Shown: positions 7,649 to 27,852 of the stretch, piece after piece
How positions within the stretch are numbered: the stretch's first letter is position 1
Layout: each line of letters opens with the position of its first letter
Source of the DNA: a virus
Length of the DNA: 41,613 nucleotides
Virus record (IMG/VR): IMGVR_UViG_3300034073_001383
Location: 1 to 41,613 of that record
Strand: one strand, 5' to 3'
The notes under the pieces: generated by a model
The model's database searches: none
Told to the model about the DNA's origin: nothing
The model's input: the letters and a program-made list of their open reading frames with translations, nothing else
Position numbers and translations under genes: made by a program

Positions 7649-7685
7649 GCCTCGCGGCTGGCTGACCACCAGCCAGCCGCGAGGC
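7649..7685. terminator. Perfect 16-bp stem hairpin between clamp and HTH genes
   Basis: The arms GCCTCGCGGCTGGCTG (7649-7664) and CAGCCAGCCGCGAGGC (7670-7685) are exactly complementary around the loop ACCAC. It starts seven bases beyond the sliding-clamp stop in the leftward direction. There is no T-run after it, so it may act with other factors, as an RNA stabiliser or as a transcription barrier rather than a classical intrinsic terminator. Confidence 0.75.
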
Positions 7686-11470: not shown

Positions 11471-12051
11471 CACACCACCTCCGAAACTGGCTGGATTCGC
11501 AGGAGCGATCGGATGGGGTGCAGCCTGGACGTGCTGACGCTGTAGTTCATCCATGACCCGCGAAGGCTGCCGACTTCCGGCGAGCGGCACACAACCGCGC
11601 GACTCAGGTAGCCGTCGATTGCAACGCGGTAGTCGGACCCGCTCCAGTTGGCGAACACGAACCAATCTGCACGCTCGGCGGGAACCCGAACGTACCGGCT
11701 CTCGTAGTCGCTCTGCGACGTTTTGACTTGCACGCTGCCGCACGGCAGCGGCAGATCACGCCCGCCATCCCCGCCAGAACGAAACGCGACATCAAGAGGG
11801 ACGCCAGCCAACTTGCACATCGCACACTCACCCACCTTCCCTAAGACTGTCCCGGAGATGTCGCCGCCCAACGCCTTGCCGCACGGCAGCTTGAGCGAAC
11901 GAACGAGACCGCCCTTCCATCCGGGCCTGCCCGCGTACTGGTATCGCTCCACGTACTGCCGTGCGAAGTCGATGCACATCTCGATTTCCGAGGGTGTGAT
12001 CTCAACCAGCACGGGTACGGGCGGTCGTCTTCCCTGACCTTCCGACTCCAT
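11470..12051 (-). CDS. PD-(D/E)XK-type nuclease, restriction-endonuclease-like
   Basis: I place the start at ATG 12051, because it follows a GGAGG ribosome binding site at good spacing; an upstream TTG start would add ten residues. The 193-residue protein has GKVGECAMCKLAG (helix with Glu), then the core GGDGGRDLPL and SVQVKTSQSDYE: D followed about ten residues later by Q-V-K, the PD-(D/E)XK active-site pattern with Q in place of E. The later part has alternating hydrophobic strands. It overlaps DUF3102-like and Dam genes on either side. A type II-like endonuclease is the best guess; a recombination nuclease is possible. Confidence 0.7.
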   Translation of the reverse strand: MESEGQGRRPPVPVLVEITPSEIEMCIDFARQYVERYQYAGRPGWKGGLVRSLKLPCGKALGGDISGTVLGKVGECAMCKLAGVPLDVAFRSGGDGGRDLPLPCGSVQVKTSQSDYESRYVRVPAERADWFVFANWSGSDYRVAIDGYLSRAVVCRSPEVGSLRGSWMNYSVSTSRLHPIRSLLRIQPVSEVV

Positions 12052-12598
12052 TCTCGGCCTCCATTTCCGCGAGAAACTCAAGCAACTGCTCGATCCTTCG
12101 CCGCACGTACAGGTACTGCTCGTGCGTTGTCAGTTGCCCGACGAACTTCGTGACCGCGTTCTTCACCGCCGATGCCATCTCTTCGTGAGGTGGCTTCTCG
12201 GGCTTCTCTACCGGGTCGGCGTGCAAGGCTGCCGCCTGTGCCCTGGTTGTTTCCGGCGTGATCTCGCCAGCCTTGATGCCGGCGATCAGCGTCTCGTCAT
12301 CGAGCTTGGTCAACTCGTAGAGAGTGCTGAACGACTGAGGCAAATACCGCACATGTGCGGTATTTGAAAGAACCCCACTAGAGGCAATAGCTATAAGTTT
12401 TTGGGCGTTGTCTTCGCCCCACGGCAGCGGATCGCTCACCGCGTTCTCGTGTCCCTTGAACAGCCTCAGGAACTCGCCGTGCTCGCACGCTTCCTTCGCT
12501 GCGATCAGTTGCCGCCCGACGCCGAGGATGCCCTCGATGCTCTTCCGCCACTCGCCGTGAATCTTCGGTGCCCAGTATTCGGCCTTCGTCTTCTTCAT
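12002..12598 (-). CDS. DUF3102-like phage/plasmid protein
   Basis: The 198-residue protein shows the DUF3102 pattern: KIHGEWRKSIEGILGVGRQL, HGEFLRLFKG, a PLPWGEDNAQKLIAIA segment, and the conserved YLPQSFSTLYELTKLDDE helix. The C-terminal part is a helical, basic extension ending in KTTARTRAG. DUF3102 proteins are found beside ParB-like genes on phages and plasmids and are thought to bind DNA. The 26-bp palindrome lies in this reading frame. ATGA overlap at 12595-12598 couples it to the ParB-like gene. Confidence 0.8.
   Translation of the reverse strand: MKKTKAEYWAPKIHGEWRKSIEGILGVGRQLIAAKEACEHGEFLRLFKGHENAVSDPLPWGEDNAQKLIAIASSGVLSNTAHVRYLPQSFSTLYELTKLDDETLIAGIKAGEITPETTRAQAAALHADPVEKPEKPPHEEMASAVKNAVTKFVGQLTTHEQYLYVRRRIEQLLEFLAEMEAENGVGRSGKTTARTRAG
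12341..12366. repeat. 26-bp perfect palindrome (candidate parS or recombinase core site)
   Basis: Ten-base arms CAAATACCGC and GCGGTATTTG are exact reverse complements around the six-base core ACATGT. The whole is a perfect palindrome within the DUF3102-like gene, where it encodes SNTAHVRYL. The protein segment can vary in this family, so the DNA symmetry is unlikely to be a by-product. See findings. Confidence 0.85.
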
Positions 12599-13380
12599 GC
12601 TTCCACCTCCATCTCGCGATCGAGCTTCGGCTGCATGATCCGGGTGACGCGGCGACCGTCGAGGAAGGCGTCGAGGCAGTAGAGGGTCGCGTAGTAATAC
12701 TGCTTCTGCTTGTCGTGCCCCTTCGATGTCGTAGTCGGCTGGTAATAGAAAAGCTGGTACGCAGGGTCGCCCTTCCGCAGCATCTCTTGCGTGATGAACT
12801 GATTGAGGAACTCAAGGCACCTTTCGTCGCTGGTCTCGTGCAGCCGGTCGGCGATCGCAGCGAGGATCGGAGCCCTGACTCGCGAGCTATTCGCCACCTG
12901 CGACACCTGCACGATCGCCTCGTTGTAGGTCTCGAACATCTCGCAGAAGTCATCCGGCGTGAACTTCGTGATACGCCACGCGGCACGGTACGCCCGAAGC
13001 AAGACGTTCACACACGCGGCTACCGCCGAGGAAACGGTCGTGTCGTAGAACAACTTGAGCACGTCACTCATAGTGCGACCGCGACCGCGATCCACGTACA
13101 TCTGCACGCGATCATCCAGCCCCTCGACCAGCAGGAAGTGAACGTCGTGCTTCCACGCCTCGGCCTCGAACATTGCCGTGATGCGATGCCCGCCATCGGC
13201 GATGAATCCGCTCGCCGTCACGCCGATGCCCTGGTTGGTAGGGAACCACTTCCTCTCGCGAATCTCACGCTTGAGGTATTCGATGTGCGACCGCACCTTG
13301 TTCCGGTTGTGCGTGTCCTTCGCCATCAGCGACTCGATCAGTTCCTTCGTCGCTTTCACGATCTTGCAAGTGACTGCCAT
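12595..13380 (-). CDS. ParB/sulfiredoxin-fold protein with DGGHR motif
   Basis: The 261-residue protein has an N-terminal half with FPTNQGIGVTASGFIADGGHR, the ParB/Srx-fold motif in which ParB proteins bind nucleotide (DG-HR); GFIADGGHRITAMFEAEAW is clear. The C-terminal 130 residues are helical, with no ParB helix-turn-helix that I can identify. Phage members of this group are often described as ParB-like nucleases or transcription co-regulators. The start follows an AAAGGAGCAGAAAG leader. With DUF3102 it may form a partition or DNA-binding unit at the palindrome, but that is inference. Confidence 0.75.
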   Translation of the reverse strand: MAVTCKIVKATKELIESLMAKDTHNRNKVRSHIEYLKREIRERKWFPTNQGIGVTASGFIADGGHRITAMFEAEAWKHDVHFLLVEGLDDRVQMYVDRGRGRTMSDVLKLFYDTTVSSAVAACVNVLLRAYRAAWRITKFTPDDFCEMFETYNEAIVQVSQVANSSRVRAPILAAIADRLHETSDERCLEFLNQFITQEMLRKGDPAYQLFYYQPTTTSKGHDKQKQYYYATLYCLDAFLDGRRVTRIMQPKLDREMEVEA

Positions 13381-13416: not shown

Positions 13417-14229
13417 TCAAACCAGTGCCGGCGTCCTCGGCGTCTTCGTCCTCAACTGAGACCAATCGCAGTAGGCAGTCTCGAAAAGTGCCGGCGACCG
13501 ATGCCCGAGGTGCAGCCGCCCGCTGCCGGCTTGCTCCATCTCGCAGTGAGTCGCCCCGCTGCGTCTCAGCCACTTCGAGGTTCCGCCGATCCCGAGCTCG
13601 TCTAGAAGCTCACGCATGATCCGCGACGCTTGCCGCAGCCCGCAGGCCCAGCCGAGGATCGTGCCATCGGGCGAGCCGGCGAGCATCGCGTCGATCGCGT
13701 CGAGACAAGCCGGCGTCAGCACTCGCACGATCGGATCGCCGGTCTTGCTCTGCGTCCACGCCAGCGAATCGCCGTCAACGTGCTCGCGGCGGAACGAAAA
13801 GAGATCGCCCATCCTCGCGCCGGTTTCGTATCCCGCGAGCACCCACGCTCGGAGGAACTGCCCGCGATCCGCCCCGCTGCGGAGCCGGCTGCCGTCATGC
13901 TTCCGCGTCGCCTCGATCAGCGTCTTGAGTTGCGGAATCGTCCAGGCTTTCGTCGGCTTCCGCCGGGCTCGCAGTTTGCCGATGCCTCGCGGGGCTTCCT
14001 CGACCCGACCCGAGTGGTACGCGTGGCACCAGACCGAGAGCAGGATCGTTCGCTCGTTCCTGGCGGTGATTCCGCTCACTTGCTCCAGGCGGCGGGCGAG
14101 GTAGCGGTTCAACTTGTCGCTGCCGATGGTGCCGGCCCGTTGGGCAATGGCACGAACGTGCCGCTGATATGCGGGCGAGACCTTGCGGCCGGCGAGGTAG
14201 TGCTCGGCAAGTTCGGTGAAGGTGGTCAT
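13417..14229 (-). CDS. Second tyrosine recombinase (XerC/D-like)
   Basis: The 270-residue protein has the recombinase core: Arg139 in ETGARMGDLFSF, Lys162 in SKTGD, Arg222 in KWLRRSGATH, His243 in LHLGHRSPALFETAY and the nucleophile Tyr253. The usual first His of HxLR is Lys219 here, a conservative-position change known in some Xer-like enzymes. The N-terminal SAM-like helical domain is present (RHVRAIAQRAGTI). It sits in the replication block rather than beside the integrase and acts on unknown sites; resolution of replicon dimers or a second integration system are possible. It is coupled to a helical gene upstream (ATGA at 14226-14229). Confidence 0.88.
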   Translation of the reverse strand: MTTFTELAEHYLAGRKVSPAYQRHVRAIAQRAGTIGSDKLNRYLARRLEQVSGITARNERTILLSVWCHAYHSGRVEEAPRGIGKLRARRKPTKAWTIPQLKTLIEATRKHDGSRLRSGADRGQFLRAWVLAGYETGARMGDLFSFRREHVDGDSLAWTQSKTGDPIVRVLTPACLDAIDAMLAGSPDGTILGWACGLRQASRIMRELLDELGIGGTSKWLRRSGATHCEMEQAGSGRLHLGHRSPALFETAYCDWSQLRTKTPRTPALV

Positions 14230-21875: not shown

Positions 21876-22814
21876 ATGGAACCGATCGCGTTGCGGGAGT
21901 TGTTCGAGAGGTACGGCGACCTGCGGAACCTGGACGCCAAGACGATGCAGCTATATGCCATGCTGCTTGACCGCCTGCGGGCTTTTCTCGGGCACGAGCC
22001 TACCGTCGCTGACCTCGATGACCTGACGATCTCGCGGTATCTCAGGCACCGAGCCGCCGACAAGTGGGGCGGCAAAACGATCAGCCCGGCCAGCGTCCAG
22101 AAGGATAAGGTCATGCTCCAGGCGGTCTGGAACCTTGCCGCCCGAAAGCGATGGGTCGCGGAGTTCCCCGAACTTCCTCGGATCAAAGTCGCCAAAAGCA
22201 TCCCGGCCGGGCGGGCCTATACCGCCGAGGACGTTGCGAAAATGATCCGCCGGGCTCGCCGCCGCTGCGGCACGACCGGCGGGCAGCCTTCCGCGTGGTG
22301 GTGGAGCACGCTCATATGGATGGCGTACTGCACCGGTGAACGGGCGACCGCATTGATGTCGCTCCGCTGGGGCGAGCTCGACACTCAGCGTCGGCGGGTC
22401 ATTTTCCTAGGCTCAACCCGCAAGGGCTCGACCAGAGACATTGAGCGAGACTTCACGGCCGACCTAGCCGCGATCCTCGAACCGCGACGCCGCCGGCCCG
22501 AGGATCTCGTCTGGCCCTGGGATCGGCACCGGGGGAGCCTCTGGACGAGCCTCAAACTGCTCTGCCGGCTGGCAGGGGTGCGATATAGGGGCTTCCACGG
22601 GCTTCGCCGCACACGGGCCTCCTACGCAGCCCTGGCGGGCGGTACGGCGGCGGCGACCAGGGTGCTCGACCACTCAGATCCCAAGCTCCAAGAGCGGTAC
22701 GTAGACCCCACCATTTGCCCCAGCGAGGATAGCCCGGTCGATGTGATGCCGCCCCTGCGTCTTGATGAGCCGCCTGCCGGGCAGGAAGACCAGCCCGGCG
22801 AGCCGGCGGCGTAG
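21876..22814 (+). CDS. int: Tyrosine integrase
   Basis: The 312-residue protein carries a complete tyrosine recombinase core: Arg156 in TGERATALMSLRW, Lys183 in STRKGSTRD, His241 and Arg244 in FHGLRRTRASY, His266 in RVLDHSDPKLQERY and the nucleophile Tyr275. The N-terminal domain of about 110 residues is of the SAM-like/core-binding type (KTISPASVQKDKVMLQAVWN). The tail after Tyr275 is proline- and acidic-rich. ATG 21876 follows GAGAGAGGGAG. It is one of only two confident plus-strand genes and faces an excisionase-like gene, so this is the integration module. Confidence 0.95.
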   Translation: MEPIALRELFERYGDLRNLDAKTMQLYAMLLDRLRAFLGHEPTVADLDDLTISRYLRHRAADKWGGKTISPASVQKDKVMLQAVWNLAARKRWVAEFPELPRIKVAKSIPAGRAYTAEDVAKMIRRARRRCGTTGGQPSAWWWSTLIWMAYCTGERATALMSLRWGELDTQRRRVIFLGSTRKGSTRDIERDFTADLAAILEPRRRRPEDLVWPWDRHRGSLWTSLKLLCRLAGVRYRGFHGLRRTRASYAALAGGTAAATRVLDHSDPKLQERYVDPTICPSEDSPVDVMPPLRLDEPPAGQEDQPGEPAA

Positions 22815-27484: not shown

Positions 27485-27852
27485 TACTCCTCCAGAATCT
27501 GGAGGAGTAGCCGAGAGTCGGGAGCGTCCGCCTGGGCCGCATAGTCGCCCGGCGCGAGCCGCAGCACTGCGGCATCGCCGACCTTAAGCCGCACAGTCTC
27601 GAAGAGAGCCGTGCCGCTCAGTCGCCCGAACGAGACCGTATGCGTGCCCGCGGTCGCGAGCGAGCGAGCGAAGCACAAGCCTAGGTTCGATGCCGATGCC
27701 GTGCTGATCGCCTGCGTCGCTGTGCCGACGTTCAGCGTCACCGCCAGGAAGCCCGTCGTGGAAAAGTCGCTCGTGATATTGCTCGCATTGAGGTTCTGCG
27801 ACAACGCGCCGGCGTTCACATTGAGATTCACGCTGTAGGAAATGTCGGGCAT
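27484..27852 (-). CDS. Tail-associated structural protein (122 aa)
   Basis: The protein is built mostly of strands, with SYSVNLNVNAGALSQNLNAS and TTGFLAVTLNVGTATQAIST and few charged residues. It ends LLLQILEE. No domain is recognised. TAATG couples it to the next gene. Position after the tape measure fits a tail or baseplate component. Confidence 0.7.
   Translation of the reverse strand: MPDISYSVNLNVNAGALSQNLNASNITSDFSTTGFLAVTLNVGTATQAISTASASNLGLCFARSLATAGTHTVSFGRLSGTALFETVRLKVGDAAVLRLAPGDYAAQADAPDSRLLLQILEE

Follow-up and report, generated by a model that had tools for sequence, protein, structure and literature searches.

A perfect palindrome within a phage DUF3102-like gene is a predicted binding site for the protein encoded by the same gene

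Why does the coding sequence of a viral gene contain a perfect 26-bp palindrome, and which protein is likely to read it? This question is raised by IMG/VR virus record IMGVR_UViG_3300034073_001383, whose positions 1 to 41,613 were analyzed as one stretch of 41,613 nucleotides (hereafter called the window). The palindrome, the gene that contains it, and the two genes whose products had been considered as its partners are located as follows.

12341 to 12366, no strand assigned: 26-bp perfect palindrome CAAATACCGCACATGTGCGGTATTTG, the predicted cognate binding site of the protein of the same gene
12002 to 12598, minus strand: DUF3102-like gene of 198 codons (protein P0001), which contains the palindrome and whose product was modeled with AF2
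12595 to 13380, minus strand: upstream gene (phrog_5931) for a ParB-like protein (P0002), rejected below as the reader of the arms
13417 to 14229, minus strand: gene for a tyrosine recombinase (P0003), rejected below as the user of the site

As the initial annotation had claimed, the element is a perfect palindrome, with all 26 of its 26 bases being self-complementary. Its earlier description as two arms around a 6-bp core (a “10-6-10” layout) is an arbitrary division; the palindrome is a single dyad of two 13-bp halves with no spacer. It corresponds to codons 78 to 86 (SNTAHVRYL) of the DUF3102-like gene, and the distances originally given to its neighbors are correct (about 1 kb to the tyrosine recombinase gene and 229 bp to the next gene). 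The view that such symmetry is very unlikely to arise by chance also holds. This is the only even palindrome with a half-length of at least 9 in the window, and 150 first-order Markov simulations produced 0.05 palindromes per window with a half-length of at least 10 and none with a half-length of at least 11. No second copy of the 26-mer was found in the window when up to three mismatches were allowed, and an exact-core scan of IMG/VR found the core in no other contig. The window also carries a 16-bp perfect inverted repeat with a 5-nt loop (7649 to 7685) and a perfect 12-bp inverted repeat, TACTCCTCCAGA/TCTGGAGGAGTA, with one base between its arms (27485 to 27509).

Four close IMG/VR relatives (68 to 89% protein identity) carry an inverted repeat at the same codons, but with other arms. 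The repeats at these codons are CAAATTCGGAATTTGTTCCGAATTTG in relative L002, CAAACCGGAACCATGGTTCCGATTTG in L003, and CAGATCGGAAATTTGTTTCCGATTTA in L004, and the core of the repeat in L005 is TGTGCGCATGCGCACA. Wider relatives are found in many phages (including a large group with Mu-like features), among genes of proteobacterial genomes, as gp51 of mycobacteriophage DeadP, and on plasmids. Among 120 homologous genes chosen by protein similarity, 81 carry a dyad with 11 or more of 13 pairs at the homologous codon position, compared to 0 of 34,601 positions elsewhere in the same domains, and 25 of the 120 homologs have fewer than 9 of 13 pairs at the dyad position. The arms vary between relatives while their self-complementarity is retained, and the outer part of the site (CAAAT/ATTTG) is conserved. 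Codon choice reflects this pattern at the flanks of the site, where Leu is encoded by TTG in 102 of 109 cases (128 of 1,093 elsewhere) and Asn by AAT in 81 of 85 cases (30 of 147 elsewhere), in a set of loci of which some were found by pattern. The initial annotation had expected the DNA palindrome to be kept even where the encoded peptide changes. What is retained in the relatives is the symmetry, but not the one fixed sequence that had been anticipated.

P0001 is linked to the Pfam family DUF3102 (PF11300) by a continuous chain of tblastn matches that runs from 89% down to about 36% identity, with homology across the whole domain. P0001 itself has no match to the Pfam model at an E value of 0.01, whereas 23 of 38 aligned relatives do match. 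Titles and abstracts in the literature revealed no paper on the function of DUF3102 and nothing pertinent on palindromic elements of phages. The AF2 model of P0001 (mean pLDDT of 76, with a low pTM of 0.39) has a long N-terminal helix (residues 5 to 37), helices from residues 43 to 109 that include a putative helix-turn-helix (HTH), a linker, and C-terminal helices (residues 137 to 182). Searches of PDB folds with this model returned no confident DNA-binding relative.

Among close relatives, the gene is conserved apart from the codons of the recognition helix and the palindrome. For example, identities between the window and L002 in successive blocks of the gene are 90, 62, 70, and 93%. The elements of this variable part of the gene, and one further residue of interest, are as follows.

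12341 to 12433, minus strand: hypervariable block that comprises the recognition-helix codons and the palindrome, with the rest of the gene conserved
12380 to 12415, minus strand: putative recognition helix EDNAQKLIAIAS, codons 62 to 73, assigned from the AF2 helix 62 to 73 and residue-arm covariation
12410 to 12412, minus strand: codon for D63 (family column −21), which covaries with arm positions p5/p4
12401 to 12403, minus strand: codon for Q66 (family column −18), which covaries with arm positions p7/p6
12326 to 12328, minus strand: codon for S91 (family column +5), which covaries with the palindrome center

The site and the predicted DNA-reading residues of the protein change together across about 100 phage and plasmid relatives. 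Sequence differences between the arms of different genes follow those in the helix segment after control for the remainder of the protein (partial r = 0.45, p = 0.002), but with the helix controlled for, they hardly follow that remainder (partial r = 0.09, p = 0.044). Among all columns outside the palindrome codons, a mutual-information scan of 89 genes ranked column −18 best for p7/p6 and column −21 best for p5/p4. These two columns are related as i and i+3, or one helical turn apart, and correspond to Q66 and D63 in the window, whose column numbers differ from its own residue distances because its loop has two more residues than that of most members. The same two columns again ranked first, of 77, when only close pairs were considered. 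For 31 disjoint pairs, the two-by-two table of column −18 versus p7p6 has rows of 11, 4 and 1, 15 (p = 1.6e-4), and the table for disjoint pairs of column −21 versus p5 has rows of 11, 1 and 7, 12 (p = 0.003).

These associations can be written as a simple code. At column −18, R occurs with CG (15 of 16), Q with GC or AC (35 of 36), A with GT (11 of 11), and S with TT (5 of 6). At column −21, R occurs with G followed by any base (34 of 34), S with TG (15 of 22), H with GC (7 of 9), and D with CG (3 of 3). Column +5 ranked first for the palindrome center, with Ser mostly accompanied by GACGTC, Thr by GTCAAC, Gly by ACATGT, and Arg by CC..GG or CA..TG. The code transfers between clades, in that training on Mu-like genes allows prediction in the other clade and vice versa (p = 2e-4 each), with phylogeny being corrected for in part in our permutation tests. 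Likewise, the helix RTAQ in Leptospira is paired with the arm ACGACA, as the code expects, while L002 is a poor fit at p5.

The explanation that we favor, with a probability of roughly 0.85 based on these sequence comparisons, is that the DUF3102-like protein binds the palindrome in its own gene as its cognate DNA site. We infer that this protein binds DNA and dimerizes. A P0001 dimer would read the two half-sites with its putative recognition helix, and arm symmetry would be needed because the dimer reads both halves. Residue 66 would read the outer variable pairs (p7 and p6), residue 63 would read the next two (p5 and p4), and residue 91 would track the center, while the conserved CAAAT/ATTTG would serve as the family-wide part of the site. 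Given that the reading residues and the site they read lie within about 95 bp, the pair could be exchanged or could diversify together. The initial annotation had listed a parS-like site or an operator among its options and the DUF3102-like protein among the candidate binders. This portion of the proposal survives, with the palindrome kept where the peptide changes, whereas a fixed site sequence does not.

In some genomes, the DUF3102 gene has no dyad but one is present at another location. In a list of such outside sites that was compiled by hand, the dyad resides in the gene for an XRE-type repressor (L058, L051, L078, L080, L185, L228, L239, and L243), ahead of the DUF3102 gene (L177 and L200), or between other genes (G400 and G407). 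Two additional loci (L056 and L060) carry a site within the gene and another copy upstream, and the arms of the two are nearly identical. When the code derived from internal sites is applied to the outside sites, their arms agree with it (permutation p = 1e-4, whether known misfits are in or out). The misfits are L300, one of the sites in G405, and the G402 site located in a repressor gene.

Several other features of these sites were observed. In XRE-type phage repressors, the element lies in frame in the linker just past the HTH, where it reads SNxATSxHL (L072, L058, L078, L080, L185, L228, L239, L210, L176, and L243), with the L176 linker apparently holding two tandem copies. G400 and G407 each carry three sites with the same arm (GCGACG), at positions 13654, 19876, and 22551 of the former and 21250, 30373, and 33048 of the latter. 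These are located in short intergenic gaps, one of them immediately ahead of the DUF3102 gene. Arrays that each contain five to ten palindromes are present in L241 (7777 to 9180), L244 (1421 to 1800, ending near a tRNA gene), and L199 (3934 to 5793). The palindromes in these arrays have differing arms and the same outer CAAAT/ATTTG, are often spaced about 45 bp apart, and are mostly non-coding. Smaller sets of palindromes with differing arms are found in L191 and L184, and a 319-codon open frame in L184 (1287 to 2244) seemingly contains many decayed copies (NRATSSVL, NVATSQHP, and NTSTSSHL). The arrays, including the smaller sets in L191 and L184, do not fit a single reader and may be relics, sites for several proteins, or decoys.

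An alternative is a selfish or recurrent palindromic element that, like the Rickettsia palindromic elements, inserts into coding sequences and has no cognate reader. In its favor, several unrelated genes share the element, commonly in one and the same reading phase, and it also forms arrays whose arms are of many kinds. The two copies in one repressor linker (L176) likewise favor this possibility. However, we consider it improbable because the element occupies a fixed homologous position, and DUF3102 proteins with and without the dyad show no change in length in alignments read by eye. Furthermore, the arms are tied to helix residues, and the palindromic form with an ACGT center is present in few of 398 proteobacterial genomes, so it is not scattered.

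Somewhat less probable again is a site for another local regulator, whether P0002 or, in Mu-like phages, the XRE repressor. The gene for P0002 adjoins the palindrome-bearing gene, a distant P0002 homolog is encoded near DeadP gp51, and repressor genes do carry the element. The ParB-like neighbor had also been put forward as a binder at the outset, but L002, which has different arms, encodes a P0002 that is 98.9% identical, and both P0002 and P0003 went undetected in the examined flanks of most other family members. With P0002 being 99% and P0003 92% identical in relatives with differing arms, we conclude that neither reads the palindrome. The XRE repressor is a poor candidate because L075 and L078 have nearly the same HTH and different arms, whereas L058 and L072 have different HTHs and nearly the same arms.

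An mRNA hairpin that is kept for its structure, with a role in regulation or processing, would account for arms that change jointly with pairing maintained, and for a center pair that is non-complementary in several members (p0 is paired in 66%). This is very unlikely given the types of changes observed. Interior mismatches among 665 cells comprise 7 GT, 19 AC, and 11 other, and thus G-T (G-U in RNA) is not in excess, while the pair next to the center is Watson-Crick in 95% and does not behave as a free loop. These two findings indicate that the constraint acts on a DNA dyad rather than on an RNA hairpin. In addition, the arms covary with residues of the protein helix, and copies are also intergenic.

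The least probable alternative is a tyrosine-recombinase core, used for dimer resolution or attachment by the XerC/D-like protein encoded nearby. The initial annotation had raised a core site of this kind, and in its favor are the two inverted arms around a short core and a recombinase gene 1 kb away. The arms of such sites are expected to be fixed together with their recombinase, whereas here the arms vary and the center is comparatively restricted. P0003 is 91.9% identical in L005 despite different arms, and it was not detected in the flanking sequence, of at most about 3 kb, that was examined for L002, L003, L004, L089, and L090, where the palindrome is present. Moreover, the element is common in genes of Mu-like phages, where no tyrosine recombinase was seen tied to it. 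As a separate observation, the window has two tyrosine-recombinase (integrase) genes, at 21876 to 22814 and at 13417 to 14229, that are on opposite strands and both match phrog_1.

Returning to the cognate-site explanation, the best reading by analogy is that the palindrome would be a self-encoded site of the parS or operator type, like the parS in parT of the Streptomyces coelicolor plasmid SCP2. ParT is a ParB-like protein without a CTPase domain, and ChIP-seq and BLI data place its 18-bp parS inside the parT coding sequence (PMC12260392). An inverted repeat in SCP2 parT, TGTCTCCAATTGGAGACA, which we take to be the published parS, is centered 15 codons past the helix residue aligned to column −18, and the distance in the window is 16 codons. 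Both genes therefore carry an inverted-repeat site of their own past the recognition helix. P0001 also resembles ParT in the order of its parts as modeled by AF2 (long N-terminal helix, HTH, linker, and C-terminal helices) and in lacking a CTPase domain.

There are also differences. The SCP2 site lacks the outer CAAAT of DUF3102-family sites, and ParT has a ParA partner, whereas no match to PF13614 was detected in the window. The text available for SCP2 ParT describes one site and no family-wide covarying code (PMC12260392). Sequence similarity between ParT and the P0001 family is not significant (an HMM E value of 0.05 at best, over the HTH in a one-sequence search, and an hhalign probability of 0.1%), and therefore the likeness is one of design and not proven membership.

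The specificity of ParB and Noc for palindromic sites is reported to be set by four interface residues (PMC7383237), and the DUF3102 family is similar in that few residues would determine the palindromic site. However, ParB and Noc are CTPase proteins with nearly fixed sites, whereas DUF3102 sites diversify and are carried in the gene of the binder. A Pfam search with P0001 found no domain, including the ParB CTPase domain, which places the protein outside of the type I ParB/parS systems. Phage lambda O provides another case in which binding sites (ori) lie within the gene of the binding protein. The lambda sites are several iterons for a replication initiator, whereas the present gene has a single dyad and shows no indication of an initiator role.

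In plasmids, DUF3102 genes follow a gene of the ParA family (L174 and L298 to L301) or an AAA ATPase gene (L013), and dyads are present upstream of parA in L175 (12 of 13 pairs), L300 (12 of 13), and L174 (11 of 13). The parA-DUF3102 pairs of Azospirillum and Roseomonas plasmids encode the homologous domain, and its position after ParA suggests a ParB-like partner. These DUF3102 genes have no internal dyad, and some have a dyad upstream of parA instead, whereas the window has no detected ParA. The pairs in L298, L299, L300, L301, and L174 probably represent uncharacterized partition systems with DUF3102 as a substitute for ParB. This arrangement suggests a partition function. However, given the lack of a detected ParA here and the presence of the element in repressor genes of other phages or before DUF3102 genes, an autoregulatory, roadblock, or ParA-independent role is as likely as partition. 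A lone site within the gene would be consistent with the loading of a sliding protein, with an internal operator, or with both.

More broadly, there is perhaps an even chance that DUF3102 genes are self-contained, exchangeable DNA-address cassettes, in which specificity residues and a cognate centromere or operator form one block of about 95 bp with a two- to three-residue code. If so, an element would move to a new specificity group (for incompatibility or immunity) through a single recombination event or by a short mutational walk, and arrays with foreign arms could be relics of, or decoys for, the proteins of other elements.

Because each gene carries both partners, the family offers about 90 distinct protein-site pairs as a natural library in which the evolution of DNA-binding specificity can be studied. 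From these sequence patterns, a function can most likely be predicted for the uncharacterized DUF3102 family, and its recognition code can be read. If this is true, a specific activity would be assigned to a domain that is distributed across phages and plasmids of Proteobacteria, mycobacteria, and Leptospira, and its binding site would be predictable from two or three residues. The parT gene of SCP2, the one proven case of an in-gene parS that we found, would then be extended to a large and diversified family.
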